15,936 nt of DNA from Patescibacteria group bacterium. GTDB lineage: Bacteria > Patescibacteriota > Patescibacteriia > UBA1558 > GWA2-36-10. Made by a program: the position numbers and the translations under genes. The stretch is taken from the NCBI GenBank assembly GCA_030917205.1, contig JAUPVE010000002.1:1-15936 (forward strand), written 5' to 3'. This document shows, piece after piece, positions 694 to 15,177 of the stretch. Below the pieces are notes generated by a model. It worked only from the letters and a program-made list of their open reading frames with translations, had not been told where the DNA came from and made no database searches. Position 1 is the stretch's first letter; each line of letters starts with the position of its first letter.

Positions 694-799
694 AACCCCG
701 TAGCTTAACTGGATAGAGCAGTAGGCCCTTACCATAGTGCCTACTACGGGCATGAATCAAAAAGTGCCCGTGGTGGTGGTTCGAATCCACCCGGGGTTC
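694..799 (+). tRNA. tRNA-like gene with a long variable arm and no normal anticodon loop
   Basis: Clear tRNA parts are visible. The acceptor stem is 7 bp (694-700 AACCCCG with 792-798 CGGGGTT). TA follows at positions 8-9, then a D-arm with 4-bp stem (703-706 with 716-719) and a GG-containing loop. The T-arm is 5 bp (775-779 GGTGG with 787-791 CCACC) with the canonical loop TTCGAAT (780-786). Between D- and T-arms lie 54 bases where a type I tRNA has about 22. They fold into two hairpins. One is 721-726 with 739-744 (GTAGGC/GCCTAC) around a 12-base loop, where a 7-base anticodon loop is expected. The other is an 8-bp stem, 745-752 with 765-772, resembling a type II variable arm but with a 12-base loop. 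No 7-base loop with U33 in a paired 5-bp stem can be drawn. CTTACCA (728-734) would read as Val UAC but has no stem. CCA is not encoded. It has its own promoter and terminator. It may be an unusual tRNA, a tRNA carrying an insertion, a degenerate tRNA, or a tRNA-like regulatory RNA. Confidence 0.6.
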
Positions 800-943: not shown

Positions 944-2329
944 ATGACGTTAGACACTTTAATTTTATTGGTAGTTTGGCTGATCAATCTGGGCTTGCTA
1001 TTTTTTATTATTTTTAATAAAAACAAGCAGAGGCGTTGGCCAATTTTGACCATGATTTTTTTGATCTGGTTGTGGCAGAGTAGTGAGCTGGTTAATCTTT
1101 TGTTTTTACTAGATAGCCCATCTTTGCTTTTGGGAGTGCGGGCTGGATTATTACCCACTCTCTATATTGCCCCAACTTTTGTTTGGTTGAGCTACTCTCT
1201 GGTAGATAGTTGGAAAAATATCCGTCGCTACCAACAACTGTTTTTTCTGCCAGCCTATATCATGTCACCCTTTGCTTTTAGTAAATACAATCTTAGTAAT
1301 ATCATAGTCGGCCAAAACAGTGTGTCCTATACACCGGGGCCGATTTATTTTTATTTTGCAGTCTATTTTATTATTTTGATGTCTTGGAGTTTGGTGGTTT
1401 TGATTCGTCAGCGTAGTCGCTATGACCAGGTAGTCAAAAAACAAATTGATTATATTTTTGTAGCTACTGCTTTGACAGCTCTCTTGGCTTTACTTTTTAT
1501 TTTTGTCTTGCCACTACTGGGAGTGACAGCTTTTTACTACATGGGCGTCAATAGTAGTGTCATCTTTACTACGATTGTCACCTATGCTTTGTTTCGCTAT
1601 CGTTTTTTGGATTTGAAAATAAGTTTTTACAAAACTCTGGTCAATTTGGTGCGCTTACTTTTGACGGGCTTGGTTTATGCTGTGCTTTATGTTGTCTTGA
1701 TTGGCCCAGTGCAAGTAGATTTTACTAGGACCGCAAATAGTATTGTATTTTTGGTATTTTTTGGACTGACTGCGCCGATTGTTTTTGGTGTCGCAAGTTT
1801 GGCGGCCAAATTTTTTATTTATCATCCTTTGGAGAGGATCATCCAGGCAGAGAATAATATTGCGGTGATTTTGCGTTCTAGTCAGGATCTCAATCGCTTG
1901 ATGTCATCGCTCGCCAAGGAGATTGCGCAAGTGATTGATTATAAGGAAATTTTTATCTATCTTGCCAAGCGCAATGATGCTAAGTCTTTCCACCAAGTTT
2001 ATCCAGTGGGCGAGCGGACCCTACATATGGATCATGATTTGATTTTGCAGTATTTAGCCAAAAATCAAGATTTATTGCATAGTCCAGAAGTACATTATCT
2101 GGGTACTGATTCTAAACTTAGCCAAGAGCTAGTAGAACACCATATTGACATTTCTTTCCCAATATACTATAATAATCAGCTTTTAGGAGTATTGATGTTG
2201 GACAACAATAAAAAGCTTCTTTACCAACAACAGTTAGATTTTTTGAGAGAAGTGAATAAATATTTGGATATTGCTATTGGTAGTCTCTTGCTTTATCAAC
2301 AGGCTATGGCCAATCAAGAGGAGAAATAA
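944..2329 (+). CDS. Kinase-less membrane receptor: 7TM histidine-kinase sensor module + 2TM + GAF
   Basis: A 461-residue inner-membrane protein. Residues 1-225 hold about seven hydrophobic segments in the pattern of the N-terminal 7TM region of histidine kinases (HisKA_7TM type). Near 205-222 is a T-Y-A-L-F-R-Y-R-F-L-D-L stretch that matches the same point in the full kinase at 12349. Two more membrane segments follow (about 230-285), then a GAF-like domain (about 310-450). The protein ends right after it with a short helix; there is no HisKA, HATPase or other output domain. It therefore matches residues 1 to about 475 of the 12349-15177 kinase in layout. ATG 944 is the first start after an upstream stop, with no clear Shine-Dalgarno. 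It is the first gene of a dense unit, 20 bases before the next gene. Ligand and partner are unknown; coupling to a kinase in trans is an inference. Leu codons are mostly TTG, unlike the three genes that follow. Confidence 0.8.
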   Translation: MTLDTLILLVVWLINLGLLFFIIFNKNKQRRWPILTMIFLIWLWQSSELVNLLFLLDSPSLLLGVRAGLLPTLYIAPTFVWLSYSLVDSWKNIRRYQQLFFLPAYIMSPFAFSKYNLSNIIVGQNSVSYTPGPIYFYFAVYFIILMSWSLVVLIRQRSRYDQVVKKQIDYIFVATALTALLALLFIFVLPLLGVTAFYYMGVNSSVIFTTIVTYALFRYRFLDLKISFYKTLVNLVRLLLTGLVYAVLYVVLIGPVQVDFTRTANSIVFLVFFGLTAPIVFGVASLAAKFFIYHPLERIIQAENNIAVILRSSQDLNRLMSSLAKEIAQVIDYKEIFIYLAKRNDAKSFHQVYPVGERTLHMDHDLILQYLAKNQDLLHSPEVHYLGTDSKLSQELVEHHIDISFPIYYNNQLLGVLMLDNNKKLLYQQQLDFLREVNKYLDIAIGSLLLYQQAMANQEEK

Positions 2330-2349
2330 GTAATCATTATAATAAATAT

Positions 2350-3045
2350 ATGAGTATACAAAATTTATTGTTATTAATCGCTGGCTTGATCAATTTAATG
2401 ATGTTTTTTGTGGTTGTCAGTCGTGGTTTGAATAATAAAATAAACTTGTATTTTGGCTTTTTAACTTTTTCGAACTTTTTGTGGACTTTAAGTATTTTGA
2501 TTGCTCGGATGGGCGAGGGCGGTATGTTTTGGTACTATGGTGGAGCATTATTAGCTTATCCCATTGCCTTAGGTATTGTCTTGTCTTTATACTTTTTTTC
2601 TCGGTATTTCCCAGTGCCAGGTAGCAAAGTAAAAAGGCTTCATGATGTGTTAATGCTATTATCAGCTTTTATTTTAGCCGTTGTTGTTTATATCAGAGGA
2701 GCATTTGTTTTAAGCTATAATAAAGATATTATAAATACAGAATATACTCTCTATGTAAATAAACCTGTTTATATTGTTTATAGTCTTTATTTTACCTTTG
2801 TAGCCTTGCTAGCTTTATGGAATTTATATCACAAAATTAAAGTGACTGATCATTATTTTCAGAAACAGACAATTATATTATTTATTGCTATTTTAATTGG
2901 TCTAGTTTTTGGAGTTTATTATGATTTGATTTTATGTTATTTTGGTAACTACCAGTATACCTGGTTTGGACCGGTCTTTACCTTGTTTATGAATGCAGTG
3001 GTTTTTTATTTTATTATCTCACCTCGAGAAAAAATAAGTAATTAA
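2350..3045 (+). CDS. Stand-alone 7TM sensor-domain protein, copy 1
   Basis: A 231-residue membrane protein made only of seven hydrophobic segments (about 3-22, 30-50, 60-85, 100-118, 137-162, 172-192, 202-222). Its fold type is the N-terminal 7TM module of histidine kinases, here without any cytoplasmic domain. Shared with the two following genes are an opening Q-N-L-x-L-L-I-A, K-I-N-L-Y-F-G-x-L-T-F after TM1, a K-Q stretch opening TM6, a G-P-V-F-T-L-F-M-N block in TM7, and a charged tail S-P-R-E-K-I-S-N at the very C-terminus. ATG 2350 is the only start that keeps TM1 whole; no Shine-Dalgarno is visible. The stop is 4 bases before the next gene. A receptor, scaffold or ligand-binding subunit is possible; function is not known. 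Confidence 0.78.
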   Translation: MSIQNLLLLIAGLINLMMFFVVVSRGLNNKINLYFGFLTFSNFLWTLSILIARMGEGGMFWYYGGALLAYPIALGIVLSLYFFSRYFPVPGSKVKRLHDVLMLLSAFILAVVVYIRGAFVLSYNKDIINTEYTLYVNKPVYIVYSLYFTFVALLALWNLYHKIKVTDHYFQKQTIILFIAILIGLVFGVYYDLILCYFGNYQYTWFGPVFTLFMNAVVFYFIISPREKISN

Positions 3046-3049
3046 ATAT

Positions 3050-3748
3050 ATGATTATTTTTTCAACACAAAATTTTGTTTTATTGATTGCCGCGTTGATT
3101 AACCTGTTCATGTCCTTTTTTGTTTTTAAAAGGGGTATTAAAAATAAAATTAATTTATACTTTGGTTTGCTAACTTTTTTTAATTTTACCTGGAGCCTAG
3201 GTTTGTTAATTTCTCGATCAATAGCAGATATAAGTTTAGTAGGTTTATTTGCTAGAAGTACCTATATTTCCGCTTTAGCAATTGTTATTTTTTTATTTTA
3301 TTTTGTTCATCATTTTCCATATCAGACGGCCAAATTAAAAAATGTTGCTCATATTTTTATCTTATTACCAGCCATTGTTTTATCATTCTATATTTATACT
3401 CCATATTTTATAACCGAGACAGTGAGGGCTTATAGTGATTTCGAGTATATATCTCATTATAATAAAGTAGGTTTTTTTCTATATGCTATTTATTTTGTAG
3501 TTATAGCTATTTTAGCTTTGAAAAAATTATTTAAAAAATATAATGTAGCAGAGGGCTTATTAAAGCAGCAAATTAAAATGTTATTAGTGGCTATTATAAT
3601 TGGCTTATTGTTCGGTAGTTATTTTGATTTATTTATTCAGTATTTTGACGATTATAGGTTTAATTGGCTGGGTCCAATATTTACGGTATTAATGAATTTT
3701 ATAGTTTTCTTTTTTGTTATTTCCCCTAAAGAAAAAATAAGTAATTAA
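3050..3748 (+). CDS. Stand-alone 7TM sensor-domain protein, copy 2
   Basis: A 232-residue paralogue of the genes on both sides, with seven hydrophobic segments and nothing else. It has the family blocks K-I-N-L-Y-F-G-L-L-T-F-F-N after TM1, K-Q-Q-I-K opening TM6, G-L-L-F-G-S-Y-F-D in TM6, N-W-L-G-P-I-F-T before TM7 and the terminal S-P-K-E-K-I-S-N. The extracytoplasmic loop between TM4 and TM5 is the least similar part among copies, as expected if each copy senses something different (inference). Start ATG 3050 follows the previous stop by 4 bases; the next gene begins 4 bases after its own stop. Codons are strongly TTA/ATT/AAA-biased. The tail and intergenic DNA are a near copy of the preceding junction. 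Confidence 0.78.
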   Translation: MIIFSTQNFVLLIAALINLFMSFFVFKRGIKNKINLYFGLLTFFNFTWSLGLLISRSIADISLVGLFARSTYISALAIVIFLFYFVHHFPYQTAKLKNVAHIFILLPAIVLSFYIYTPYFITETVRAYSDFEYISHYNKVGFFLYAIYFVVIAILALKKLFKKYNVAEGLLKQQIKMLLVAIIIGLLFGSYFDLFIQYFDDYRFNWLGPIFTVLMNFIVFFFVISPKEKISN

Positions 3749-3752
3749 ATAT

Positions 3753-4454
3753 ATGGGACAATTTTTTACTATTCAAAATTTAGTTTTATTTATAGTTGCT
3801 TTGGTAAATTTGGGCATGAGTATTTTTGTTGTTAAGAGAGGTACAAAAAGCAAGATTAATTTATATTTTGCCTTACTAACCTTTTTTAATCTGACTTGGG
3901 TAATTGGTTTGATGATGGCAAATTCAATCAATGGTTTGAATTGGATCGACTTTTACGACAGATCTACAAATTTATCTGGTGTTGGTATAATTATTTCCTT
4001 ATTTTATTTTACCTTACATTTTCCCTATCAAAGAGAGAGGATTGGTAATGTTAAAACAAAGATAATTTGGTCATTAGCAATTTTATTATCAATATTAATA
4101 TATACAAAATGGTTTATAGTGAGTACTGTCTGGTCTGATAAATTTCCATATTATATAGCTTATTATTATAAGCCAGTTTTTATTGTCTACGCTATTTATT
4201 TTTTTGTTTTAGCAATTTGGTCAATTTATTTTCTGATAGCCAAATATAAAAAATCCGAGGGACTCATTAAGCAGCAATTAAAATGGTTGATTATTGCTAT
4301 AATTATTGGGTTAATATTTGGGGCCTATTTTAATATTATTGTGTCTTATTTTGGTAATTTTAATCCTGGTTGGCTTGGACCGGTGTTTACTTTGTTTATG
4401 AATATAGTAGTCTTCCGAGCCATAAGATCCCCTAAAGAAAAGATCAATGGTTAA
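3753..4454 (+). CDS. Stand-alone 7TM sensor-domain protein, copy 3
   Basis: A 233-residue third copy of the bare 7TM module. It shares Q-N-L-V-L-F-I-V-A near the N-terminus, K-I-N-L-Y-F-A-L-L-T-F-F-N after TM1, K-Q-Q-L-K-W opening TM6, G-W-L-G-P-V-F-T-L-F-M-N before TM7 and the tail S-P-K-E-K-I-N-G. Its last codons overlap the next gene by 8 bases (ATG 4447 inside ATGGTTAA), so translation of the two is probably coupled. Here the tail has diverged at the DNA level from copies 1 and 2. Function is unknown; a membrane sensor or scaffold is inferred from kinship to the 7TM region of the kinase at 12349. Confidence 0.78.
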   Translation: MGQFFTIQNLVLFIVALVNLGMSIFVVKRGTKSKINLYFALLTFFNLTWVIGLMMANSINGLNWIDFYDRSTNLSGVGIIISLFYFTLHFPYQRERIGNVKTKIIWSLAILLSILIYTKWFIVSTVWSDKFPYYIAYYYKPVFIVYAIYFFVLAIWSIYFLIAKYKKSEGLIKQQLKWLIIAIIIGLIFGAYFNIIVSYFGNFNPGWLGPVFTLFMNIVVFRAIRSPKEKING

Positions 4455-5418
4455 AGCCAGAAAAAAAATAACTTTACTTTTGGCTGGCGGTACAGCTTTA
4501 CTTGATCAAAACAAGAGGCTGTTGACTGTCCAAAGTCCAGAAGATATAGAGCTCTGGCTCAAGCAAATGCCTGAGTTGGGACTACTCGCTGAGATTGAGC
4601 CAATTTTTGTGTCTGCCGAAAACGATATCTTGACTCCAGAACATTGGCAGGCTATAGCTAGGCAGATTGCTGAGCGCCTGGAGACCAGTAGTGGTTTTGT
4701 AGTAGTCTCTAGGGCTGATCAATTATTGTTGACTGCTAATGCTTTGAGTTTCTTGTTGCAGAATATTAAGAAAACAGTAGTATTGACATCAGCTTTACGC
4801 AGTGGCACTACTGAGATCAAGCAGAAAAATATTTTTGGTCAAAAAAATGATTTGGGTTTACGATCCAATCTGATCAATGCTTTTCAGGTTTTGGACTATA
4901 GCCTACCCACACCAGCTATCATGTTTGGCACTAGACTCATCCCTGGAGTACGAGCCATCAATGACCATGATCAAGGCTTGAATATTTTTGCTAGTCTTGA
5001 TGATAATTATTGGGGTCGAGTCGATTTTGGTATCAGTGTCAAAGCCGGCTTGAGCTTTCATACAGCCAAGACAAAGCTTTATGAAAAAATAAAAGCTAAT
5101 ATTTTAGTTTTTGATGACTTACCGGGCCTAGCCTGGGATCTGGATTTTGCTAAGCTAAAAAATTATGAGGCTATTTTTATCCGTCTCAATCATCAAAATA
5201 AATTAGAGCCAGTGAAAATAAAACAAATTAAAGAATCTCCTTATCCGGTTTTTTTGTATCATCCTACCCAAGTCCAGGGGCCAGATGAAGCCATAGCCAT
5301 GAGTAATTGTACTTTTGAAGCAGCTTTAGCTAAAGCCATGTGGGCTATAGCTAATAAAGATGCTTTGAGTCAGTTTACGCAAATTGGTGAGCAGAATATT
5401 ATAGGTGAGCTAATATAA
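4447..5418 (+). CDS. Asparaginase-family protein lacking catalytic residues (possible pseudoenzyme)
   Basis: A 323-residue protein with the overall length and layout of type I L-asparaginases (AnsA/GatD fold). The N-terminal L-L-L-A-G-G-T-A-L-L-D keeps the first active-site Thr (T16 of G-G-T). The second signature, normally H-G-T-D-T-x-x-x-T-A-x-A-L-S-F, reads S-R-A-D-Q-L-L-L-T-A-N-A-L-S-F: the catalytic Thr of T-D-T is Ala90, and His and the last Thr are gone; Asp91 remains. The conserved Lys in the G-N-R-x-T-K context (Lys162 in E. coli AnsA numbering) aligns with Asn172 in G-V-R-A-I-N. The remaining blocks (V-V-L-T-S-A-x-R, I-x-A-F-x-V, N-I-F-A-S) are well kept, so the fold is under selection although ordinary asparagine hydrolysis looks unlikely. 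Its start overlaps the last 7TM gene by 8 bases, which suggests co-translation. It may be a ligand-binding protein or an enzyme with altered chemistry. Confidence 0.8.
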   Translation: MVKARKKITLLLAGGTALLDQNKRLLTVQSPEDIELWLKQMPELGLLAEIEPIFVSAENDILTPEHWQAIARQIAERLETSSGFVVVSRADQLLLTANALSFLLQNIKKTVVLTSALRSGTTEIKQKNIFGQKNDLGLRSNLINAFQVLDYSLPTPAIMFGTRLIPGVRAINDHDQGLNIFASLDDNYWGRVDFGISVKAGLSFHTAKTKLYEKIKANILVFDDLPGLAWDLDFAKLKNYEAIFIRLNHQNKLEPVKIKQIKESPYPVFLYHPTQVQGPDEAIAMSNCTFEAALAKAMWAIANKDALSQFTQIGEQNIIGELI

Positions 5419-5431
5419 GATCAAGAAATTT

Positions 5432-6013
5432 ATGCATATTTATTTTTACAGTAATACTAGTGAGACCGATCAAAATAGTCAGCAGATTTTGCAATATTTG
5501 CGTCGGGTCGGCGCTACAGTCATCAGTGAAACTTCGACCAAAAAAATAGACAGTTTAGCTGGTACCTTACCGATGGACAAAGTAGACGTTATGCTTATCT
5601 ATGGCCAAAAATTAGATGCGCAAGCTGGCTACTGGTTGGCTTGGGCGGTGTCAAAAAATAAAGATGTCTTATGTCTGTTGCCTGAGGGTACAAAGCTTGA
5701 TGCAGCCTTAGAGCATCTTTTGACTGATCAAGTAGCGACCAAAAAATTGCATTTGGCTCGCTATCAGAGTAATGATGTTTTAGAAAAAGTGTCTAATTTT
5801 TTGGAAACTTTTGGTCAAGATGATTTAGCTGAGCTATACAATATCAAATACACTCTGCGTTTGTCTCGCAAGATCAATGAATATCTTGATTGGAAAAGTG
5901 AGTCTACTCAGATTGATAAAGCTACCTGGCTGAGACAAAATATCCAAGGCTTGATGGAAGCAGATAAAGATTGGCAAAAATATCTAGCTACTAAATTTAA
6001 AGTCAAGAAATAA
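5432..6013 (+). CDS. Rossmann-like (nucleoside deoxyribosyltransferase-type) protein with possible ribbon-helix-helix tail
   Basis: A 193-residue soluble protein not assigned with certainty. Residues 1-110 alternate short strands and helices. M-H-I-Y-F-Y-S opens like a first beta strand. From D52, D-V-M-L-I-Y-G-Q-K-L-D, then G-Y-W-L-A-W-A-V-S-K-N-K-D-V-L-C-L-L, resembles the 'E-x-G-x-A-x-x-x-x-K-P-V' region of nucleoside 2-deoxyribosyltransferase-like folds. The catalytic Glu is not evident: G-Y-W-L-A replaces it. Residues 136-180 (Y-N-I-K-Y-T-L-R-L-S-R-K-I-N-E-Y-L-D-W followed by K-A-T-W-L-R-Q-N-I) have the strand-helix-turn-helix spacing of a ribbon-helix-helix DNA-binding unit. It lies 13 bases after the asparaginase-like gene and 2 bases before the hydrolase gene. 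A nucleotide-binding or regulatory role is only an inference. Confidence 0.6.
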   Translation: MHIYFYSNTSETDQNSQQILQYLRRVGATVISETSTKKIDSLAGTLPMDKVDVMLIYGQKLDAQAGYWLAWAVSKNKDVLCLLPEGTKLDAALEHLLTDQVATKKLHLARYQSNDVLEKVSNFLETFGQDDLAELYNIKYTLRLSRKINEYLDWKSESTQIDKATWLRQNIQGLMEADKDWQKYLATKFKVKK

Positions 6014-6015
6014 GT

Positions 6016-6831
6016 ATGGAAAAAACCGCAGTGCATAAGCAGTTTACCTTTTTGGCCGATGTCTCACCCAAAGCTCAGCCTTTTGTCATTCACTCACCGT
6101 CTAGTGATACCTTAGCTATTTTGATTCACGGCTTTTCTAGCTCACCCTATACTTTTCATGATTTAGCCGAATACTTAGCCAAGCGGGGGATTGATTCAGA
6201 AACTGTACTGCTAGCTGGTCATGGACGGGATTTTAAGTGTTTGAAAAAAAGCACAGCTATAGACTGGTATCAATCAGCGGAGAGAGTATTACATAAAAAT
6301 CAAGCTAAGTATAAAAATATCTTTGTCATTGGCGAATCATTTGGTAGTAATGTGGCTATTCATTTAGCCTCGCATTATCCTAAGCTGAGTGGAGTAGTGA
6401 CATTGAGCATTCCAGTGTTTTTGTTTAAGGAAAAAACTATTAGATTTTTTTTACCACTGGCCGCTTTAGTGACCACGAAGTACAAAAAACGTTGGTTTGA
6501 CTCCAAGGATATGCATCAGATCAAAGAATTTGGTCGACATCTCTATCTGCCAATTGCCAGTATCAAAAATTTTTATAAGTTTATCGATACCTTTACCAAA
6601 AAAGAGGCGCACAAAGTCCGTATACCAGCCCTGATCATGCACTCTCGCAATGATCGCGTGTCACAGGCTAGGAGCTCGCAGTGGCTTTTTGAGGAAATAA
6701 AAAATAAGAATAAGGAGCTGTATCTTTTGGATAAAGAAAATCATCACCTGATCTACAAAACTCGTAGTGATTTGGTTTTTGAAAAAATTACTACTTTTAT
6801 TGAAAAAAATAGGCAAAATTTTGACGATTAG
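6016..6831 (+). CDS. Alpha/beta hydrolase (carboxylesterase / monoacylglycerol-lipase type)
   Basis: A 271-residue serine hydrolase with a full catalytic triad. The oxyanion-hole motif is I-L-I-H-G-F (H38-G39), the nucleophile elbow G-E-S-F-G places Ser108, Asp213 sits in H-S-R-N-D-R-V, and His244 is in E-N-H-H-L-I-Y. The length fits the Est30/monoglyceride-lipase type of short carboxylesterases. A lid-like insert rich in aromatic and basic residues lies between about 135 and 195. There is no signal peptide or membrane anchor, so it probably acts in the cytoplasm on acyl esters. Start ATG 6016 is 2 bases after the upstream stop. The substrate is not identifiable; release of fatty acids from membrane lipid, for use by the acyl-CoA synthetase downstream, is possible but unproven. 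Confidence 0.85.
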   Translation: MEKTAVHKQFTFLADVSPKAQPFVIHSPSSDTLAILIHGFSSSPYTFHDLAEYLAKRGIDSETVLLAGHGRDFKCLKKSTAIDWYQSAERVLHKNQAKYKNIFVIGESFGSNVAIHLASHYPKLSGVVTLSIPVFLFKEKTIRFFLPLAALVTTKYKKRWFDSKDMHQIKEFGRHLYLPIASIKNFYKFIDTFTKKEAHKVRIPALIMHSRNDRVSQARSSQWLFEEIKNKNKELYLLDKENHHLIYKTRSDLVFEKITTFIEKNRQNFDD

Positions 6832-6869
6832 GCCTATATTTGTTAGACTGGCTACTTAGAAACAATACA

Positions 6870-8534
6870 ATGACAAAACAAAAAAATAATATATTTATTG
6901 CTTTGGCTTGGCCCTATGCCAATGGCTCTCTGCACTTGGGTCATCTAGCTGGTTTGCTAGGTGGAGATATTGTGGCTCGCTACTATCGTTTGGCTGGACA
7001 TAAAGTCTTGATGGTGTCTGGTAGTGATTGTCACGGCACACCTATTGCCGTCGAGGCTGACAAGCAGGGTGTGGAGCCAGCTGTTATAGCGTCAAAGTAT
7101 CACACAGAGTTTAAAGATATTTTTTTGAATAAATTGAATTTTTCTTTTGATTGTTATACTACCACTACCACCAAAAATCACGAACAAGCTGTACAGGAGT
7201 TTTTTTTAGATTTGCAAAAAAAGGGTTATATCTACTCAAAGTTTGAAGATCTGGCCTATTGTGAAACTTGTCAGCGCTTTTTACCTGATCGCTATGTCGA
7301 AGGAGAGTGTCCAAAGTGTCAGTTTATTTCGGCTCGGGGCGATCAATGTGATAATTGTGGTGCGTTATTGGATGCTAATCAGCTCATTAAGCCACGTTGT
7401 AAGACTTGTGGTTCTACACCAATCTGGAAGCCTTCGGAACATTTTTTCTTGAAACTTTCAGCTTTTCAAGCCCAATTAGAAAAATGGGTATCTAAAAGTG
7501 AGGGCTGGCGACCAAATGCCAAAAATTTTACTTTGAATTTTTTGAAAGAAGGTTTGCATGATCGGGCTATCACTAGGGACACTAATTGGGGTATAGATAT
7601 ACCGCTAGATGGCTACGAAGCTAAAAAGATTTATGTTTGGTTTGAGGCAGTTATTGGTTATTTTTCTGCCAGTCGCGAGTGGGCTGAATCTACGGGTAAT
7701 GCTCAAGCGTGGCAAGAGTTTTGGCAGAATGACTCGTGTCTGCACTATTATTTTCATGGCAAAGATAACATACCATTTCATACCGTGATTTGGCCGGCGA
7801 TGTTGATGGCCAAAGAGGCTTTGCATTTACCTGATCGCATCATATCTTCTGAATATCTGACTTTAGAAAAAAAACAATTATCCAAGAGTCGTCACTGGGC
7901 TGTCTGGCTACCAGATTTTTTGGCTAAGTTTGAGGCTGACACTATTCGCTATTATTTGGTGATTTCTGGTCCAGAGACTTCTGATGCGGATTTTTCTTGG
8001 ACTGAGTATCAGGTTAAAGTAAATACTGAGTTGATTGGTAAATTTGGCAATTTAGCTAATCGAGTTTTTTCTTTTGTCAATAAACATTGTCCAGATGGAT
8101 TGGTAGCCAGTGATATCAGGCTAGATAAGCCGGCTGAAGATTTATTAAAATTGACTGAGGAGGCCTTTACTAGTGTCGGTGATGGTATTAGCCAAGCCAA
8201 GTTCAGAGACAGTTTGAAAGTAATATTGAATCTAGCTGAGAGTGCCAATAGGTATCTAGAAGAAACTTCGCCTTGGAAGCAGATCGCTACTGATAGACAG
8301 TCAGCGGAGCGAGCTCTCTATACAGCCTCTCAAGTTATTTACAATTTGGCGACTTTACTAAATCCTTTTATACCGCAGTCCACTGATAAAATTTTAGCTA
8401 TGCTTGGTCAGGAGAGAAAACAAGCCTGGCAGTATACAACATTGCCTGCTGTCCAGATTACTAAAGTCGAGCCATTGTTCGCTAGGATTGAGGATGCAGT
8501 GGTAGAGCAAGAGTTCAAGGCCTTGGGCCAATAA
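6870..8534 (+). CDS. metG: Methionyl-tRNA synthetase, compact form
   Basis: Charges tRNA-Met (initiator and elongator) in the cytoplasm. The class I HIGH motif is H-L-G-H (22-25, in W-P-Y-A-N-G-S-L-H-L-G-H). Two zinc knuckles are present: C131/C134 with C147/C150, and C160/C163 with C177/C180. The KMSKS loop reads K-Q-L-S-K-S (335-340), so the usual Met is Leu and the first turn is changed. The C-terminal helical anticodon domain is complete, but the optional EMAP-like tRNA-binding/dimerisation domain is absent, giving about 554 residues. I chose ATG 6870 rather than the in-frame TTG at 6840: the first ten codons from TTG have no counterpart in the family, and M-T-K-Q leads directly into the first strand. 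It follows the hydrolase gene by 38 bases and is the last gene before the terminator. Confidence 0.95.
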   Translation: MTKQKNNIFIALAWPYANGSLHLGHLAGLLGGDIVARYYRLAGHKVLMVSGSDCHGTPIAVEADKQGVEPAVIASKYHTEFKDIFLNKLNFSFDCYTTTTTKNHEQAVQEFFLDLQKKGYIYSKFEDLAYCETCQRFLPDRYVEGECPKCQFISARGDQCDNCGALLDANQLIKPRCKTCGSTPIWKPSEHFFLKLSAFQAQLEKWVSKSEGWRPNAKNFTLNFLKEGLHDRAITRDTNWGIDIPLDGYEAKKIYVWFEAVIGYFSASREWAESTGNAQAWQEFWQNDSCLHYYFHGKDNIPFHTVIWPAMLMAKEALHLPDRIISSEYLTLEKKQLSKSRHWAVWLPDFLAKFEADTIRYYLVISGPETSDADFSWTEYQVKVNTELIGKFGNLANRVFSFVNKHCPDGLVASDIRLDKPAEDLLKLTEEAFTSVGDGISQAKFRDSLKVILNLAESANRYLEETSPWKQIATDRQSAERALYTASQVIYNLATLLNPFIPQSTDKILAMLGQERKQAWQYTTLPAVQITKVEPLFARIEDAVVEQEFKALGQ

Positions 8535-8548
8535 TTATATTTATTTAA

Positions 8549-8622: not shown

Positions 8623-8640
8623 ATAGTTGTTTTATTGCTT

Positions 8641-10356
8641 ATGTCCAATACGATTATTGCTAATTTTTTGGAAGTAGTTCGCGATTTTGCTCAGCGTCCA
8701 GCTTTAGGTTTTTATAGCCAAGGACACTATCAGACTATCAGCTACCAAGAGCTCAATAATCTCCGTAGCCAATTGGCTGACGATTGGCAGAAAAAAGGAT
8801 ACATACAAGGTGAGAAAGTGGCTGTGATGTTACCCAATTGCCCAGAGTGGGTCATAGCTGACTTGGCAGTAGCTACTTTGGGTCTGATTTTGGTACCCGT
8901 ACACTATACTTATCCAGAAAAGTATTTAGAAACAGTAGTCAATCACTCAGGAGCTAAATTCCTATTGATCAATCAAGAATTATTTACTAAGTATAAAAAT
9001 AGTATTTTGTCTTTGCCACTCAAGGCTATTTATGTAGTTGGCTTGACGGAGAGCGTTGATGATCAGAGAGTTTTGGCTTGGCCATCTTTTGATAAGCATA
9101 AATTAGTCAATATTGAAGCCATGGCTCGGGCAGAAGACTTACACACAATTGTCTATACATCTGGTACTACTGGTGAGCCAAAAGGAGTGATGCTATCGCA
9201 AAAAAATTTAGTTAATGATGCGCAATCCGCTCGGCGCAATGTCCCCATCTACGAAACTGATAAATTCTTTTCTTTTTTGCCTTTGTCACATGCTTTTGAA
9301 AGAATGGCTGGATATTATGGGCCCTTGTTTGCCGGTTGTAGTATTTATTATGCTCAGAGCGCCAAGACCATGATTGCTGATATCAAATTGGTTCAGCCGA
9401 CTGTTTTGCCTTGTGTGCCGAGGATTTTTGAAAAAATATACGCCAAGATTTTTGAGCAAATAAAAAGTGGTAGTAAGTTCAAGAAAAAATTATTTTATCA
9501 AACGCTTAATTTAGTTGATGCCAAGAAAAAAAGGCAGTTAAATATTATAGAAAAATATCAGTATCTTCTTCTGAACTATTTGGTATTCAAGAAAATAAGA
9601 AATATTTTGGGCGGTCAACTGCGCTTGGCTATCTCTGGCGGTGCTTCACTCAATCCAGCCATTGCTAAATTTTTTGATAGCTTAGGCCTGAAGTTGATCG
9701 AGGGCTATGGGTTGACTGAGGCTTCACCAATCGTAGCGGTCAATCATCCTGATAATTATAAATTCGGCACTGTGGGTTTACCACTAGATTGTAATAAAAT
9801 AAAATTGTCAGCTGACAAAGAAGTTTTACTAAAAGGTGACAATGTTATGTTGGGCTACTATGCCAATGAGCAGGCTAGTAGCGAAGCCTTTAATGAAGAT
9901 GGTTGGCTCCATACGGGTGATTTGGGCTTTTTTGATCAGGATGGTTTTTTGTCAATCATTGGTCGAGCCAAAGATGTAATTGTCCTATCAACTGGTAAAA
10001 ATGTTTTCCCAGAGCCAATAGAGTATATACTTAACGCCAATAAGTATATTAGCCAGAGCATGGTCTATGGTGACAAGCAAAAAGCCTTATCAGCTATTAT
10101 TGTGCCAAATAAAGAGTCATTACAAACTTGGTGTGAAAAAGCTAGCATTGAGTTCAAATTACCAGAAGTTTTAAATAATACTTCAGTAGTGAATCTATAC
10201 AGACAAGTTATTGATGACTCGCTAAAAGATTTTTCTAAGACTGAAGGAATTAGTAATTTTAAATTAGTCGAGGAAGAGTTTAGTATTGATAACGCTTTAT
10301 TGACTATTACATTGAAGTTAAGAAGGCATCATATTTTGAGAAAGTATTTTAAGTAA
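8641..10356 (+). CDS. Long-chain acyl-CoA synthetase (AMP-forming)
   Basis: A 571-residue member of the ANL adenylating superfamily that activates a fatty acid to acyl-AMP and transfers it to CoA. The phosphate-binding loop T-S-G-T-T-G-E-P-K-G is at 173-182, the adenine/acyl motif G-Y-G-L-T-E at 355-360, H-T-G-D at 424-427 (Asp427 binds the ribose), the hinge G-R-A-K-D at 441-445, and the C-terminal catalytic Lys is probably Lys559 in T-L-K-L-R-R. It is slightly shorter than E. coli FadD. It is closest in style to FAA1/FadD15-type long-chain synthetases, with F-L-P-L-S-H-A-F-E-R in the middle. I chose ATG 8641 over the in-frame TTG at 8635 because the -10 leaves almost no leader. It is the first gene of its unit and 26 bases before coaC. 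From about codon 490 the codon use turns AT-rich (TTA, AGA), unlike the first 480 codons. Confidence 0.92.
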   Translation: MSNTIIANFLEVVRDFAQRPALGFYSQGHYQTISYQELNNLRSQLADDWQKKGYIQGEKVAVMLPNCPEWVIADLAVATLGLILVPVHYTYPEKYLETVVNHSGAKFLLINQELFTKYKNSILSLPLKAIYVVGLTESVDDQRVLAWPSFDKHKLVNIEAMARAEDLHTIVYTSGTTGEPKGVMLSQKNLVNDAQSARRNVPIYETDKFFSFLPLSHAFERMAGYYGPLFAGCSIYYAQSAKTMIADIKLVQPTVLPCVPRIFEKIYAKIFEQIKSGSKFKKKLFYQTLNLVDAKKKRQLNIIEKYQYLLLNYLVFKKIRNILGGQLRLAISGGASLNPAIAKFFDSLGLKLIEGYGLTEASPIVAVNHPDNYKFGTVGLPLDCNKIKLSADKEVLLKGDNVMLGYYANEQASSEAFNEDGWLHTGDLGFFDQDGFLSIIGRAKDVIVLSTGKNVFPEPIEYILNANKYISQSMVYGDKQKALSAIIVPNKESLQTWCEKASIEFKLPEVLNNTSVVNLYRQVIDDSLKDFSKTEGISNFKLVEEEFSIDNALLTITLKLRRHHILRKYFK

Positions 10357-10382: not shown

Positions 10383-10949
10383 ATGGAAAAATTTAGTAAT
10401 TTAAAATCAAAAAAGATTTTAATTTGTATTACTGGTGGTATTGCAGTTTATAAGATAGCCTCTTTGGTTAATCATTTTTTAAAAAATGGATCACAAGTAA
10501 AAGTTATCATGACACAAGCAGCTACGGAATTTGTTTCACCTGTTACTTTTCAGGCACTATTGAATGACGTTGTCTATACTGATCTTTTTGATATCAAGAA
10601 TCCACGCGAGGTAGAGCATATCTCCTTGGCAAAGTGGGCAGATATTTGTTTGGTAGCCCCAGCCACAGCTAATACTATTGGTAAAATTGCTCATGGTATA
10701 GCTGATAATTTATTAACAACTGTCGTTATGGCTTTGCCACAAAAAACCAAGATAATTATAGTGCCAGCTATGAATACAGAGATGTGGAATAATCCAATCA
10801 TGAAAAATAATATAAACGAGCTTAAAAAATATAAAAGATATATTTTTATTAATCCAGTAAGTGGTTTGTTGGCCTGCAGAGATGAAGGCATAGGCAAGGT
10901 AGCTGATAGTCAGGATATATTAAAAATTGTAAGTAAGGAGTTAAAATAA
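10383..10949 (+). CDS. coaC: Phosphopantothenoylcysteine decarboxylase (stand-alone CoaC)
   Basis: An FMN-dependent flavoprotein of the HFCD family that decarboxylates 4'-phosphopantothenoylcysteine to 4'-phosphopantetheine, the middle of CoA synthesis. It is 188 residues, so it is the single-domain form and not the usual bacterial CoaBC fusion of about 400. Visible marks are the FMN-binding start I-T-G-G-I-A-V-Y-K (16-24), the active-site His79 in V-E-H-I-S-L-A-K-W-A-D, the substrate motif P-A-M-N-T-E-M-W (128-135, Asn131), and the flexible-loop Cys165 in A-C-R-D-E-G-I-G, which reduces the enethiol intermediate. The stop TAA abuts the ATG of the next gene with no spacer. The partner ligase CoaB is encoded one gene later. 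No Shine-Dalgarno is visible; the 26-base gap upstream is almost pure A/T. Confidence 0.95.
   Translation: MEKFSNLKSKKILICITGGIAVYKIASLVNHFLKNGSQVKVIMTQAATEFVSPVTFQALLNDVVYTDLFDIKNPREVEHISLAKWADICLVAPATANTIGKIAHGIADNLLTTVVMALPQKTKIIIVPAMNTEMWNNPIMKNNINELKKYKRYIFINPVSGLLACRDEGIGKVADSQDILKIVSKELK
10935..10940 (+). promoter_or_regulatory. Shine-Dalgarno of the transglutaminase-like gene
   Basis: AAGGAG lies 9 bases before ATG 10950, inside the end of coaC. It is the only canonical ribosome binding site I can see before any gene in the window, and it fixes this start. Confidence 0.7.
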
Positions 10950-11699
10950 ATGGATTCTATTGATAGTTTTTTGTTGGAGACTAAACATTGTAATTTTAAT
11001 AATCCAACAATAAAAAAATTAGCTCAAGATATTACTAGGGACTGTGTAAGTGATCAGGAAAAGGCAGTCAGGCTTTTTTATTGGGTAAGAGATAATATTC
11101 AATATAGGTTTGGTCCATGGAATAAAATAGCCTCAGATATATTACGGGACAGATTTGGTATGTGTACTAATAAAGCGGTTCTTTTAACTTCATTATTAAG
11201 AGCTGAAGGTATTCATTCAGGTTTTGGCATTTTGAAGGTAAAGGGTCAGGAATATTTTGGCCCCATAGCACCAATTGTTTTGTCTGGTAGGGTGAGTAAG
11301 TTGTCTGTTCATTTTTATTCGTATGTGTTTATTGAAAACAAGTGGATAAAGATAGATCCGTCTGTCGATATTGACTTAGCACGAAAGACAAATTATTTTA
11401 ATCCAACTACACAATTAACAGAGTGGTTTGGTTCGGAAGATGCAACTGAGAATCTTGATCCTTCTCATATCATTTCTGATGAAGGGCCACTTGCAAACAT
11501 AGAGAGTTATCTTAGAAAAAAACCAAGGGTCATTAGTAGGATAAATTTTTTTGTTGGTAATTTATATTTAGATTTTTTACGTTCTAATAAAATAAAGATT
11601 GTTGATCCAAAACAATTAGGTCATTTGTTTGAATCTTGGTTGAAAAGAAACAATTTTTTTTATTATTTTTTATTCAAAATTTATATAAATATCAAATGA
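10950..11699 (+). CDS. Transglutaminase-like cysteine enzyme inserted between coaC and coaB
   Basis: A 249-residue protein of the transglutaminase-like superfamily (papain-type fold). The predicted triad is Cys72 in F-G-M-C-T-N-K-A-V-L-L-T-S-L-L-R-A-E-G-I, His121 in S-V-H-F-Y-S-Y-V, and Asp136 in W-I-K-I-D-P-S; the helix before Cys and the W-x-x-x-D-P spacing are as usual for the family. An N-terminal helical part (1-60, with R-L-F-Y-W-V-R-D-N-I-Q-Y) is the typical lead-in. The C-terminal 70 residues are basic and aromatic and unassigned. There is no signal peptide, so it is probably cytoplasmic. Its ATG touches the coaC stop, and its TGA overlaps the coaB ATG (ATGA, 11696-11699), so it is translated as part of the CoaC/CoaB pair. 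Members hydrolyse or form amide bonds; the substrate here is unknown. A pantothenoyl, pantetheine or cysteinyl amide is an inference from position only. Confidence 0.85.
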   Translation: MDSIDSFLLETKHCNFNNPTIKKLAQDITRDCVSDQEKAVRLFYWVRDNIQYRFGPWNKIASDILRDRFGMCTNKAVLLTSLLRAEGIHSGFGILKVKGQEYFGPIAPIVLSGRVSKLSVHFYSYVFIENKWIKIDPSVDIDLARKTNYFNPTTQLTEWFGSEDATENLDPSHIISDEGPLANIESYLRKKPRVISRINFFVGNLYLDFLRSNKIKIVDPKQLGHLFESWLKRNNFFYYFLFKIYINIK

Positions 11700-12346
11700 A
11701 AAAAGCTTTTTATGGTAAGAGATTTTTGATTACAGCGGGCCCAGTTTGGGTGCCAATAGATAGTGTGAGGGTTCTGACTAATATTTTTGGAGGTAAATTA
11801 GGCTATGTTATTGCTCAGGAGGCTGTCAAATTAGGCGCTGAGGTCACACTGTTGATGGGACCTGGTAGAGTTCAGTTTGTTGGTAATGAAAAGTTTAAAG
11901 TAATTAAATATAGGACATTTTCTGACATATACAAGTTAATGAAAAATGAAATCAGTACTAAAAAATACGATGTCATCATTCATTCGGCGGCAATTCCAGA
12001 TTATGTACCTGTGAAGGTTTTTAATGGTAAAATTAAATCCGGCAAAAAAGATTTAACAATAAGATTTAAAAAAACTTTTAAAATTGTAGATAGAATAAAA
12101 AAATGGGATAAAGACGTTTTATTGGTAAAGTTTAAATTAGAGGTTGGTAAATCAAAAAAACAATTATTAAGCATTGCCCATGAAAGTATGTTGAAATCCC
12201 ATGCTGATATTATAGTGGCTAATGAATTTGGGGATGTTATAGATGGTCACTTGGCGTATATATGTGGATCTGGTGAGCCAATAAAATGTTATGGGAAAGA
12301 TGGTGTGGCAAAAAATTTATTGAGTATGATTAGGTTAAAAATATAG
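11696..12346 (+). CDS. coaB: Phosphopantothenate-cysteine ligase (stand-alone CoaB)
   Basis: Joins 4'-phosphopantothenate to cysteine using a nucleotide triphosphate (CTP in bacteria), the step before CoaC. It is 216 residues, the size of the CoaB domain alone. The N-terminal L-I-T-A-G-P (11-16), P-I-D-S-V-R (20-25) and T-N (28-29) match the DFP/CoaB start, although the usual T-x-E before P-I-D is V-W-V. Further on come S-A-A-I-P-D-Y (97-103, for the usual A-A-V-S-D-Y), the K-I-K-S segment that carries the nucleotide-binding lysine, and an I-V-A-N-E-F-G-D block near the end. I chose ATG 11696, which forms the ATGA overlap with the upstream stop. The in-frame TTG at 11636 would add 20 residues overlapping the coding end of the upstream gene and has no family support. 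The kinase gene follows after 2 bases. Confidence 0.93.
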   Translation: MKKAFYGKRFLITAGPVWVPIDSVRVLTNIFGGKLGYVIAQEAVKLGAEVTLLMGPGRVQFVGNEKFKVIKYRTFSDIYKLMKNEISTKKYDVIIHSAAIPDYVPVKVFNGKIKSGKKDLTIRFKKTFKIVDRIKKWDKDVLLVKFKLEVGKSKKQLLSIAHESMLKSHADIIVANEFGDVIDGHLAYICGSGEPIKCYGKDGVAKNLLSMIRLKI

Positions 12347-12348
12347 TT

Positions 12349-15177
12349 ATGTATTTTAGATTAGATTATCAAAATTACATTATATTATTTTCTGCTGTAG
12401 TTAATTTATTCTTTGCCGGTTTTATTTATTTAAAGGGCAAAAGAAATTTAGTTAATATTTCTTATAGTATTTTTACGATCGGTGTTGTTTTCTGGTCACT
12501 GGGTATGTTTATGTACCGGGGTACACCTGATTATGGTCAGGTAATTTTTTGGTCTAAGTTTTTATATTTCGCATCTGGTTCAATACCTTTATCTCTCTTG
12601 TTTTTTTCTCTTATTTTTCCCGATAGTAAAATTAAATTAAATTTTCTTAAAATTATATTTCTTTTTATTATCCCCGCATTTTTTTTAATTGGTTCTTTTA
12701 TACCAGGTTTTATTGTAAAAGATATTGTAATTCATAGAACATCAGAAAATGAGATGTTTTTTGGAAGTGGTTATAATTTTTGGTCCTTTTATCTTTTGTT
12801 TTATTTTGGGGCCTCTTTTTATAATTTAGTAAGAACCTATAGAAGGTCAAAAAATATAGTAAAGCTTCAAATCAAATACATTCTGATTGGAGCGGTAATT
12901 TCTGTATTTTTTGGTGCATTAACCAATTTAGTTTTACCAGCAATTGGTAATACCAGCTTTGGTTGGTTGGGTCAGAGCTTTACTATAATAATGATAGCGT
13001 TTGCTACTTATGCTGTGGTTAAGTTTAGGTTAATGAATATTCGCTTCTTTTTAACAAGAGGAATTTTGTATGGTTTACTGGTTGCTATGGTTGCAACAAT
13101 TTTTTCTTTATCAGTTTTAATGACTGCGAGTCTTTTTGGTACAGAAAATCAGGCAAGTAGAGTAGCAGTATCCATAGTAGTTTCTTTTATTATCGTGATA
13201 TTTTTAGACCCTGTCAAAAGTATCTTTGCTAGAATCACGGATAAAATTTTTTATAAAGATCGAATTGACTATCAAAAACTTTTACAGCAGGCCAGTGCTG
13301 TTGTTTCAAGAGAAATTGATTTAAGTAAATTAGCATATTCTTTATCTGATCTGTTAGCCACACAGTTAAAAGTTAAAGAAATATCAGCATGGATTATAAA
13401 AGATCAAAATTGGCATTGTATCGCTAGTTCTATAAAAAATAGTAAAAGTTTTGAATTAAGTAAAGAGCTAATTAAACTCATACAAGATCATCAGGATATT
13501 ATTGTCGTAGAGGAATTAATTCGTAATCAAAATAATCTCAATTTCAATATACCTTATTATCAAACACTTGGTCTTCTTATAAAAGAAGCTGAAAGTATTG
13601 GCGTAGAAATGGTGGTGCCGGTTTATGATGAAAAAAAGGCAATGACGGCAATTTTTTTATTTTCAGCGAAAAGTTCAGGAGATCTATATAATCAGGATGA
13701 TATAAATTTTTTGAATGTTTTAACTCCTCAAATTGCTACAGCTATTGAAAAATCTAAATTATACGAAGAAGTTCAAGCTCTAAATCTTGAGTTACAGGCT
13801 AAAGTTGATGCTAGAACAAAAAGTTTAAAAGAAGCTAATCTTGGTCTTGAGCAAAGAAACAAGTTTTTGATAGCCATGCAAGGTGTGACTAATATGGTTA
13901 GTCGTACTATGGATTTGAAGCAGGTTAATCAGTTGATTGCCAACAGTATTGCTACGGAGTTCGGTTATATTGGTGGTATTTTGACTTTTATTGATGAAAA
14001 AAATAATGTTTTGCGTATTGGTGCTATGACTGAGAATGAGTATAGCAATGAAGTTGTAAAAATTTTAGGTCAAGATCCCAAAAATTTTGTAGCGGAAATG
14101 CAGATGAAGGACCTGTTGGGTGTAAAAACTGTGTTGTCTGGTCAGATGAATACTTCTGATAAAATGTCTGATTTCTTTTCTCCGCCAGTAGAAAAAGCAG
14201 TAATTGATCAAATACAAGAAAAATTAGGTGTCAAAACCATAGTGGGTTTGCCAATTTTTTCTGAGGATAAGATTATTGGTATTGTTCATTTTTTGTTGGC
14301 TGTAGAGGAAAGCAAGTTTACCTCTCTGGATAGAGATACTATGATCGCTCTGGCTGACCAGATTGGTATCGTGTCTAGAAACTTGCGCTTATACAATAAT
14401 CTCCAAGCTACCAACCAAGACTTGCAGGTAGCCAATATGCGATTGAGGGAGTTGGATCAGGCTAAGTCTGAGTTTTTATCAATTGCTTCGCATCAGCTAC
14501 GCACACCTATTTCTGCTCTCAAAGGCTATTTGTCCATGATTTCTGATGGTGATTTTGGTACTGTGCCACCAAAGATTAGTAAGGTAGTCAAAGATTTGTT
14601 TGAAAGTGCTGCTCGTTTGGCTAGGTTGGTCAATATATTTTTGAATGTTTCTAGGATTGAGTCTGGGCGCTTGAAGATAGAAAAGAAACCACTGCAGATC
14701 GGTGATATGATTGAGAGTGTCATTGCTGAGCTACACAATGAATCAGATAAAAAAGGCGTGAAGTTGATTTATAAAAAGCCGAAGCCAGCCTTGGCACTGG
14801 TGGCGGCTGACGCTGACAAATTGCGTGAAGTAGTTTTGAACTTGATTGATAATTCTATCAAATACACACCCAAAGGGCAGATTGAGGTCAGCGCATTGGT
14901 TGAAAATGACAATATGCACTTCAAAGTGCAGGATACTGGTATTGGTATAGATCCTGAAGAAGCCAAAAATTTATTTAGAAAATTTGTGCGGGCTAGTGGT
15001 GCGGCCCAGATTCATACTGGTGGCTCTGGTTTAGGCTTATTCATCGCTCAGAAGATCATCAAAGAGCATGGTGGACAAATATGGGTAGAGAGTGCTGGCA
15101 AAGAGCAGGGGAGTATTTTCCAGTTTGTGATACCTATGCTTGGTGGTGAGCCAAATAAAGAAGAGATGCAATCTTAG
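12349..15177 (+). CDS. Membrane sensor histidine kinase: 7TM-2TM-GAF-coil-GAF-HisKA-HATPase
   Basis: A 942-residue sensor kinase and the only complete one in the window. Residues 1-225 form the 7TM sensor module shared with the genes at 944-4454. Two further membrane segments lie at about 240-290, GAF1 at about 324-468, a coiled coil at about 470-505, and GAF2 at about 520-680. The dimerisation/phosphoacceptor domain has E-F-L-S-I-A-S-H-Q-L-R-T-P with His715. The HATPase domain has the N box at 831-836 (N-L-I-D-N-S), D-T-G-I-G-I from Asp862 and G-S-G-L-G-L from Gly892, so kinase residues are intact. It autophosphorylates in trans and passes the phosphate to a response regulator (family knowledge); no regulator gene is visible nearby. 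The stop TAG is followed by a terminator. Odd point: codons before residue ~500 are TTA/AGA-rich, after it TTG/CGN-rich, with the change at the coil/GAF2 junction. This suggests a chimera of an imported receptor half and a resident kinase half. Confidence 0.92.
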   Translation: MYFRLDYQNYIILFSAVVNLFFAGFIYLKGKRNLVNISYSIFTIGVVFWSLGMFMYRGTPDYGQVIFWSKFLYFASGSIPLSLLFFSLIFPDSKIKLNFLKIIFLFIIPAFFLIGSFIPGFIVKDIVIHRTSENEMFFGSGYNFWSFYLLFYFGASFYNLVRTYRRSKNIVKLQIKYILIGAVISVFFGALTNLVLPAIGNTSFGWLGQSFTIIMIAFATYAVVKFRLMNIRFFLTRGILYGLLVAMVATIFSLSVLMTASLFGTENQASRVAVSIVVSFIIVIFLDPVKSIFARITDKIFYKDRIDYQKLLQQASAVVSREIDLSKLAYSLSDLLATQLKVKEISAWIIKDQNWHCIASSIKNSKSFELSKELIKLIQDHQDIIVVEELIRNQNNLNFNIPYYQTLGLLIKEAESIGVEMVVPVYDEKKAMTAIFLFSAKSSGDLYNQDDINFLNVLTPQIATAIEKSKLYEEVQALNLELQAKVDARTKSLKEANLGLEQRNKFLIAMQGVTNMVSRTMDLKQVNQLIANSIATEFGYIGGILTFIDEKNNVLRIGAMTENEYSNEVVKILGQDPKNFVAEMQMKDLLGVKTVLSGQMNTSDKMSDFFSPPVEKAVIDQIQEKLGVKTIVGLPIFSEDKIIGIVHFLLAVEESKFTSLDRDTMIALADQIGIVSRNLRLYNNLQATNQDLQVANMRLRELDQAKSEFLSIASHQLRTPISALKGYLSMISDGDFGTVPPKISKVVKDLFESAARLARLVNIFLNVSRIESGRLKIEKKPLQIGDMIESVIAELHNESDKKGVKLIYKKPKPALALVAADADKLREVVLNLIDNSIKYTPKGQIEVSALVENDNMHFKVQDTGIGIDPEEAKNLFRKFVRASGAAQIHTGGSGLGLFIAQKIIKEHGGQIWVESAGKEQGSIFQFVIPMLGGEPNKEEMQS

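Follow-up and report, generated by a model that had tools for sequence, protein, structure and literature searches.

What purpose is served by three adjacent genes that each encode only the membrane-spanning sensor module of a histidine kinase? The question is raised by positions 2350-4454 of a 15,936-nucleotide stretch of a Patescibacteria group bacterium (assembly GCA_030917205.1, contig JAUPVE010000002.1; hereafter the window), whose genome assembly is 667 kb and 68.8% complete. It bears on how host-dependent, genome-reduced Patescibacteria communicate with hosts and neighbours. Comparison of the locus with its relatives suggests that the three genes belong, on balance, to the constant half of a candidate chemical-signalling operon, in which a putative synthase cassette stands with a putative receptor kinase and the bare seven-transmembrane (7TM) proteins may be accessory.

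Profile searches bore out the view of the initial annotation, made from the letters alone, that these genes encode the HisKA_7TM sensor module and nothing else (Table 1). A Pfam scan of the three copies at E < 0.1 returned no family besides HisKA_7TM, and neither Pfam nor NCBIfam placed a kinase family in them; kinase domains do not follow the 7TM module. Copies 2 and 3 exceed the HisKA_7TM gathering score, and copy 1 lies below it yet is 43% identical to copy 2 and 39% to copy 3, with 51% between copies 2 and 3. All three have ATG starts and are on the same strand, separated by 4-bp gaps between the open reading frames (ORFs). Copy 3 stops 8 residues past TM7, a point to which the alignments of copies 1 and 2 also extend. 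Because relatives carry the same kind of gene, the ORFs are not a chance reading; in the genus-mate G001, copy 1 has a truncated counterpart that matches it at 71% identity over 179 aa. As had been pointed out, a kinase that carries this 7TM module does lie nearby, at 12349-15177. A search of the window's own genome with copy 2 (E up to 10) found, beyond the three copies, only this kinase and a 7TM-GAF protein at 944-2329.

The genes from 944 to 15177 are all on the + strand. Loci of the window's family (f1) share the order 7TM-GAF, bare 7TM (one to three), asparaginase-like, DNPH1-like, alpha/beta hydrolase, AMP-binding ligase, variable genes and 7TM kinase, although individual loci deviate in that genes are absent, sit elsewhere or are extra. 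In other families within the order, one bare 7TM gene stands ahead of these asparaginase-like and DNPH1-like genes (L053-L055, L075, L076). The variable slot holds one to three enzymes between the ligase or bare array and the 7TM kinase. Representatives were named by Pfam or NCBIfam and the rest by profiles built in this analysis. A CoaC/transglutaminase/CoaB-like cassette occurs in the window, L042 and L085; an LPLAT acyltransferase with a HAD-IB phosphatase in L036, L041, L045, L050, L075, L084 and L133; a BioF-like enzyme in L037, L044, L089, L094 and L101; and a FeeM/autoinducer-synthase-like GNAT with ThiF or a methyltransferase in L046, L100, L105, L109, L118, L121 and others. Histidine-decarboxylase-like (L110, L145) and fatty-acyl-reductase-like (L107) cassettes were also found, as were methyltransferases and Shikimate_DH-like oxidoreductases. 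Adjacent genes in L037 (249 aa), L043 (532 aa), L104 (256 aa), L113, L120, L124, L127, L128, L141, L142 and L146 had no Pfam match at E 0.001.

We examined 75 7TM proteins of kinase length, 67 of which have a recognisable H-box; 68 of the 75 had a same-strand gene no more than 400 bp upstream, 22 of them overlapping and 49 within 20 bp. Among 35 held-out 7TM kinases, 22 had a first upstream gene from one of eight enzyme groups, compared with none of 14 controls (Fisher 5e-5). The controls were non-7TM kinases of the class, of which 19 of 20 were kept (L167 proved to be a 7TM kinase) and 14 had an upstream gene.

The sensor domain of the kinase follows the cassette. Cassette labels came from profiles built on the discovery loci, with kinase sequences unused; six (L079, L107, L110, L114, L131, L145) were set by hand from Pfam before the cassette tests, and L039 was dropped as a duplicate of L085. 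Tree tests excluded single-member cassette types, and both tree and cross-family tests excluded kinases shorter than 700 aa. On a tree of 72 kinase 7TM domains (51 labelled), the cassette label required 19 changes, against a shuffled mean of 36.5 and a minimum of 32 in 300 shuffles; for the kinase domains of these proteins, the tree required 34 against 36.6, with 21 of 200 shuffles as low. The taxonomic family label required 17 changes against 32.9 on the kinase-domain tree (0/300 as low), and in these sequence trees the kinase domain follows family better than the 7TM domain does. When pairs were drawn across families from 54 kinases, 7TM identity was 28.8% for the 113 same-cassette pairs versus 23.3% (0/1000 shuffles), and kinase-domain identity was 40.6% versus 41.4% (798/1000). 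The cassette matched that of the nearest 7TM domain from another family in 27 of 47 cases and that of the nearest kinase domain in 7 of 47. Within f1, identity for same-cassette versus other pairs was 46% versus 27% in the 7TM domain and 70% versus 69% in the kinase domain (13 and 65 pairs). A fresh set of 60 loci with 58 kinases, 30 of them labelled and some being other loci of genomes already sampled, gave 24.8% same-cassette identity versus 21.4% for the 7TM domain (0/2000) and 38.3% versus 37.9% for the kinase domain (694/2000). At close range, the window kinase can be set beside that of G001, from the same genus: in 50-residue blocks, identity is 14-48% over residues 1-250 and 76-100% from residue 451 onward, although the G001 kinase sits at a contig end with its cassette side cut off. 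Because the 7TM domain, unlike the catalytic domain, follows the cassette across families, and did so again on fresh loci, sensor and cassette seem to be exchanged as a unit, the behaviour expected of a signal synthase with its receptor.

We propose that a small molecule, probably acyl-based, is the joint product of ligase and cassette, and that the 7TM domain of the kinase binds the cassette product within the membrane and thereby controls the kinase, the cassette and kinase sensor acting as signal synthase with receptor. Exchange of the sensor with the cassette means that likely receptor-ligand pairs could be identified by sequence alone, and it predicts which enzyme's product each 7TM domain should bind. 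The receptor-ligand question therefore becomes testable one cassette at a time in E. coli.

Several observations weigh against this interpretation. The cassette labels are coarse, and 28 of the 58 fresh-set kinases received none. The kinase 7TM domain also follows family in part (28 changes against 33.0, 0/300 as low), and on an f1-only tree of 10 rows the linkage to cassette is weak (3 changes against 4.9, 10/300). Seven of the 75 7TM kinases lack a same-strand gene within 400 bp upstream; L073 and L088 are cut by a contig end, and L123, L130, L136, L144 and L149 are not. A response regulator lies within two genes of 12 of the 75 7TM kinases versus 11 of the 19 controls, which were hand-picked among shorter kinases (336-504 aa). 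Not all cassettes are acyl-transfer enzymes, and the enzymes could be of an ordinary kind: in L037, the BioF-like protein narrowly exceeds the NCBIfam cut-off for biotin-pathway BioF (426.6 versus 426.45 bits), which would allow a biotin-type enzyme, and it falls far under the autoinducer-synthase model (209.4 bits, cut-off 428). Joint transfer would also be expected if the 7TM domain senses a substrate or by-product.

A related alternative is that the operon serves the synthesis of a lipid, for membrane or storage, or the scavenging of fatty acids, with the 7TM proteins as product feedback sensors and no cell-cell signalling. Feedback sensing fits the sensor-cassette linkage equally well, and the fatty-acyl ligase, hydrolase, LPLAT with HAD, FabA-like, BioF/serine-palmitoyltransferase-like and fatty-acyl-reductase-like enzymes all suit lipid chemistry. 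We nevertheless regard this as rather unlikely, given that close relatives differ in cassette chemistry with an otherwise unchanged operon, and that autoinducer-synthase-like and CqsA-like genes beside a sensor kinase form the layout proposed for quorum sensing in the candidate phyla radiation (CPR; Bernard et al. 2020, PMC7567580).

If the kinase sensor travels with the cassette, where do the bare 7TM proteins belong? In 25 loci with both kinds of protein, bare 7TM similarity tracked kinase-domain similarity (partial correlation 0.505, 0/1000) and only slightly that of the kinase's 7TM domain (0.129, 40/1000). On a tree of the bare domains the family label required 18 changes against 45.4, and cross-family pairs of bare 7TM domains showed no visible dependence on cassette (161/1000). 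Because their similarity tracks organismal descent and not the cassette, the bare proteins belong to the constant block. This tells against the earlier view of the copies as ligand variants for the kinase, and it makes an accessory role with constant partners likelier than a set of spare receptors. An accessory, receptor-like role of this kind is plausible from the sequence comparisons, though we hold it with less than even confidence. The bare proteins could be accessory ligand-binding membrane subunits, and gene coupling points to the asparaginase-like protein, encoded by the overlapping next gene, as the most likely partner. Two results run the other way: the cassette label is also clustered on the bare-7TM tree (24 changes against 30.7, 0/300 as low), and the correlation between bare and sensor domains, though weak, leaves some room for direct pairing.

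The initial annotation had instead seen a receptor array that perhaps docks on a common partner through a fixed TM6-TM7 core and C-terminal tail. Its bare modules are real, recur and have a kinase nearby; the docking tail and the ligand-variant role found no support. The tail, S-P-(R/K)-E-K-I, is indeed common to the three copies (75% identity), but mean identity there drops to 36% over 51 bare proteins. Outside the window, 75 bare ORFs span most of the HisKA_7TM domain; one of them has SP(K/R)EK in its last 14 residues, and 11, all from the window's family, have (K/R)(E/D)K. A fixed docking tail was rejected on these counts. Nor is the TM4-TM5 loop the most variable part: extracellular loop 2 (ECL2) is 28% identical among the three copies, compared with 23% for the N-terminus, 22% for ECL1 and 26% for TM4 (TM3, 30%; intracellular loop 3, at 17%, has 2 residues only, too short to count). 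TM1 (59%), TM2 (61%), TM6 (49%) and TM7 (53%) are better conserved than TM3, TM4 and ECL2, which would suit a diversified receptor set docking on the 7TM kinase, as would the recurrence of arrays, which in other families are often the immediate upstream neighbours of cassette and kinase (L091, L094, L096, L100, L105, L110). The kinase 7TM domain, however, differs strongly between genus-mates with near-identical catalytic halves, and the bare proteins follow descent, so a specific transmembrane interface is ill-suited unless it uses the conserved TM1/2/6/7 face. With the tail also unconserved, we consider docking on the kinase unlikely.

We judge it similarly improbable that the bare proteins work as transporters, as lipid carriers or as membrane anchors, passing a shared acyl precursor on to cytosolic enzymes. 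Their place in the constant block and their adherence to descent are what a housekeeping component would show, and a bare 7TM gene adjoins the asparaginase-like gene in f1, f4 and f6. Against this stand their homology to a sensor domain and a GPCR-like predicted fold with a beta-hairpin in the place of ECL2 (GPCR, G-protein-coupled receptor). Copies 1-3 matched no transporter family at a meaningful score in Pfam or NCBIfam, and a transporter assignment was rejected on those scans; with HisKA_7TM the only Pfam family at E < 0.1, the match to an unrelated transporter or enzyme family that had been named as fatal to the sensor assignment was not seen.

The fold evidence comes from copy 3, whose AlphaFold2 model has seven transmembrane helices (predicted local distance difference test, pLDDT, 89.8; predicted template modelling score 0.88); for copies 1 and 2 it comes by alignment only. 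As modelled, copy 3 is GPCR-like in fold. The GPCR rows of our structural comparison were drawn from the Foldseek top 1000, so folds missed by Foldseek cannot appear among them, and a 51-row bare-7TM profile had no match to PDB sequences at E up to 1. The bare proteins differ from eukaryotic GPCRs in sharing only about 10% identity, with no sign of common descent or of a G protein, and the shared fold shows no function. The prediction would nonetheless place a GPCR-like fold in bacteria both with and without an attached kinase. A broader and more tentative proposal, which we rate below even the accessory role, is that Patescibacteria possess modular chemical communication: interchangeable cassettes would travel with matching GPCR-fold sensors onto a conserved kinase, and bare GPCR-fold proteins in runs of one to four would form a second receptor layer acting via separate cytosolic proteins, an organisation that would be a bacterial counterpart of GPCRs.

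Bare 7TM genes recur well beyond the window. Relatives of copy 3, bare or fused, occur in 29 of 53 related genomes, and HisKA_7TM in 30 of 36 genomes of the order. Across the phylum, at least 162 of 380 sampled genomes have HisKA_7TM, mostly in long frames, among matches listed to E 4.6e-9, so weak bare genes may be missing. A profile of the bare domain matched 160 of 380 genomes of the class, fused proteins included, and bare frames reach families far from the window's. Neighbouring bare genes were seen in G459, in G412 and G581 (three each, with a further fragment in G581) and in G460 (four). Counting fragments, we recorded 37 singles, 14 doubles, 4 triples and 2 quadruples, at loci chosen for 7TM matches, so the counts give no frequency. 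The survey that had been suggested thus recovered tandem runs of two to four in families distant from the window's. Relatives of the bare proteins whose records bear names are Patescibacteria, including Candidatus Komeilibacteria; a protein search with A3 returned 53 proteins, the few named sources again being Patescibacteria, with no further function. In the phylum sample, the strongest HisKA_7TM match was G376:C1:440581-441252, in a 511 aa frame (E 4e-49; the next was 1.4e-22), possibly a recent acquisition.

Could the bare genes simply be degenerate remnants of duplicated kinases? They match only the kinase N-terminal module, and some copies are cut short or carry an in-frame stop, as in G004. 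We placed 186 7TM domains (78 bare, 78 in proteins of at least 520 aa and 30 of intermediate length) on a quick tree without bootstraps. The bare label required 7 changes against a shuffled mean of 59.6 (0/500), and 52 bare rows from several families formed one side of a starred branch (SH-like approximate likelihood ratio test 97). The window's family has two old paralogue groups, with all three window copies within one, and on this sequence tree the copies are deep paralogues. The recent degenerate duplication in a single strain that the initial annotation had feared was therefore not seen, and a degenerate-kinase origin was rejected on the all-bare starred branches and deep paralogy. Similar lengths across families and open ORFs tightly coupled to the next gene also oppose it, and we find it scarcely credible. 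In L074 (G004:C17), an in-frame TAA lies within the bare 7TM match, and at least one relative copy may be a pseudogene.

In the CqsA/CqsS and LqsA/LqsS systems, a BioF-family synthase gene lies beside a multi-pass membrane histidine kinase. The BioF-like cassettes that precede 7TM kinases in the loci named above resemble this arrangement, and no BioF/CqsA-family enzyme was found among the window proteins scanned, though some relatives have one. The present loci differ in that the sensor is HisKA_7TM, chemically different cassettes fill the same slot, and bare 7TM proteins and an acyl ligase accompany the cassette; moreover, the L037 protein passes the biotin-pathway BioF cut-off, not that of alpha-hydroxyketone synthases. 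In ComQXPA, ComCDE and agr pherotypes, signal gene and sensor domain co-vary on a conserved kinase, with peptide and modifier varying. Sensor and signal-making genes would vary together on a conserved kinase here too, but whole enzyme classes are exchanged. HisKA_7TM histidine kinases are known in archaea and bacteria, and the same sensor module occurs in the bare copies, the 7TM-GAF protein and the window kinase. The accessible parts of two reports name HisKA_7TM among sensor domains and do not mention kinase-less copies in runs (PMC5847659, PMC6944256). Synthase-kinase adjacency in CPR is already known: on the strength of synthase homologues, Bernard et al. (2020, PMC7567580) suggested that CPR bacteria use quorum sensing, and they tallied 51 CqsA-homologue/kinase, 18 LuxI-homologue/kinase and 3 PpyS/kinase adjacencies in CPR genomes. 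In the main text of that report, so far as accessible, the terms 'histidine kinase', '7TM', 'operon' and 'neighborhood' were not found, nor were sensor-synthase swapping or bare 7TM genes. In our searches of the open-licence PubMed Central literature we found no report of sensor-cassette swapping against a conserved kinase, of bare 7TM genes or arrays, of HisKA_7TM as the receptor in CPR signalling, or of the wider cassette set.

Table 1. Features of the window discussed in the text.
Feature	Position	Strand	Evidence
7TM-GAF protein without kinase	944..2329	+	461 aa; PF16927 E 5.2e-9, GAF 1.5e-4
Bare HisKA_7TM copy 1	2350..3045	+	231 aa; PF16927 24.1 bits, E 3.8e-5 (below gathering, 28.6)
Bare HisKA_7TM copy 2	3050..3748	+	232 aa; PF16927 42.3 bits, E 1e-10; tree placement
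Bare HisKA_7TM copy 3	3753..4454	+	233 aa; PF16927 50.3 bits, E 3.8e-13
Asparaginase-like protein	4447..5418	+	PF00710 E 1.3e-19; start overlaps copy 3 end by 8 bp
DNPH1/Rcl-like nucleotide hydrolase fold with C-terminal helical segment	5432..6013	+	Profile and Foldseek
Alpha/beta hydrolase	6016..6831	+	PF12146 E 2.3e-21
AMP-binding fatty-acyl ligase	8635..10356	+	PF00501 E 6e-75
Cassette gene 1, CoaC-like flavoprotein decarboxylase	10383..10949	+	PF02441 E 2e-37; TIGR00521 215.1 bits (cut-off 219.7)
Cassette gene 2, transglutaminase-like	10950..11699	+	PF01841 E 9.6e-16
Cassette gene 3, CoaB-like (phosphopantothenate-cysteine ligase fold)	11690..12346	+	PF04127 E 1.5e-38; PDB 5int E 1.2e-20
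Histidine kinase, 7TM-GAF-GAF-HisKA-HATPase	12349..15177	+	942 aa; Pfam

In the window's own cassette, the CoaC-like and CoaB-like proteins are encoded by separate genes with the transglutaminase-like gene between them. Of 17 f1 genomes, 3 yielded a CoaB match, and each of these carries this cassette. Because CoaB was not found in the other 14, the cassette is hardly core coenzyme A synthesis, and that assignment was rejected; the G001 locus ends inside coaC at a contig end, so the missing CoaB of that genome proves nothing. No response regulator lies beside the window kinase. Genome-wide, three HATPase_c matches were found, and all four response-regulator matches lie on contigs other than the window's.

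Within the constant block, 21 of 26 asparaginase-like genes, the window's among them, have a bare 7TM gene as their immediate upstream neighbour, with a gap of -47 to +9 bp (ORF starts as called in this analysis); the remaining five comprise one contig edge, one 7TM-GAF gene upstream and three other arrangements. Catalytic asparaginases have HGTDT as their second motif. The window protein keeps GGT and has SRADQ at the second catalytic motif, and judging from these residues it is probably inactive as an asparaginase. In the window's family the protein lacks HGTDT and forms a candidate pseudoenzyme lineage; the second motif is partly kept in L098 (HGIDT) and L119 (HGVDT). The 5432-6013 protein had profile matches to DNPH1/Rcl chains (E 0.0022-0.0073) and DNPH1 as the top Foldseek match (E 1.7e-4; model pLDDT 78). 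Its C-terminal helical segment, which we take to be ribbon-helix-helix-like, is preceded by a segment of low model confidence. For the ligase, fatty-acid-CoA ligase families scored best, yet under their cut-offs. A 7TM-GAF-type gene lies upstream of the bare 7TM genes in many f1 loci, and the 17 7TM-GAF rows, all from f1, formed one starred side of the 186-domain tree.

Between hydrolase and ligase, positions 6840-8534 (+) hold what is presumably a methionyl-tRNA-synthetase-like gene. It had no match among the 20 loci of the operon comparison; the genus-mate G001 (L071) has an 84% identical gene in the same place. Upstream of the 7TM-GAF gene, a tRNA-like gene of 106 nt at 694-799 (+) scored 41.3 bits in Rfam and was missed by ARAGORN. 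Its anticodon loop is enlarged, and an additional long arm stands between the anticodon arm and the T arm; in L036 and L042 the tRNAs that precede this 7TM-GAF gene are of ordinary size.

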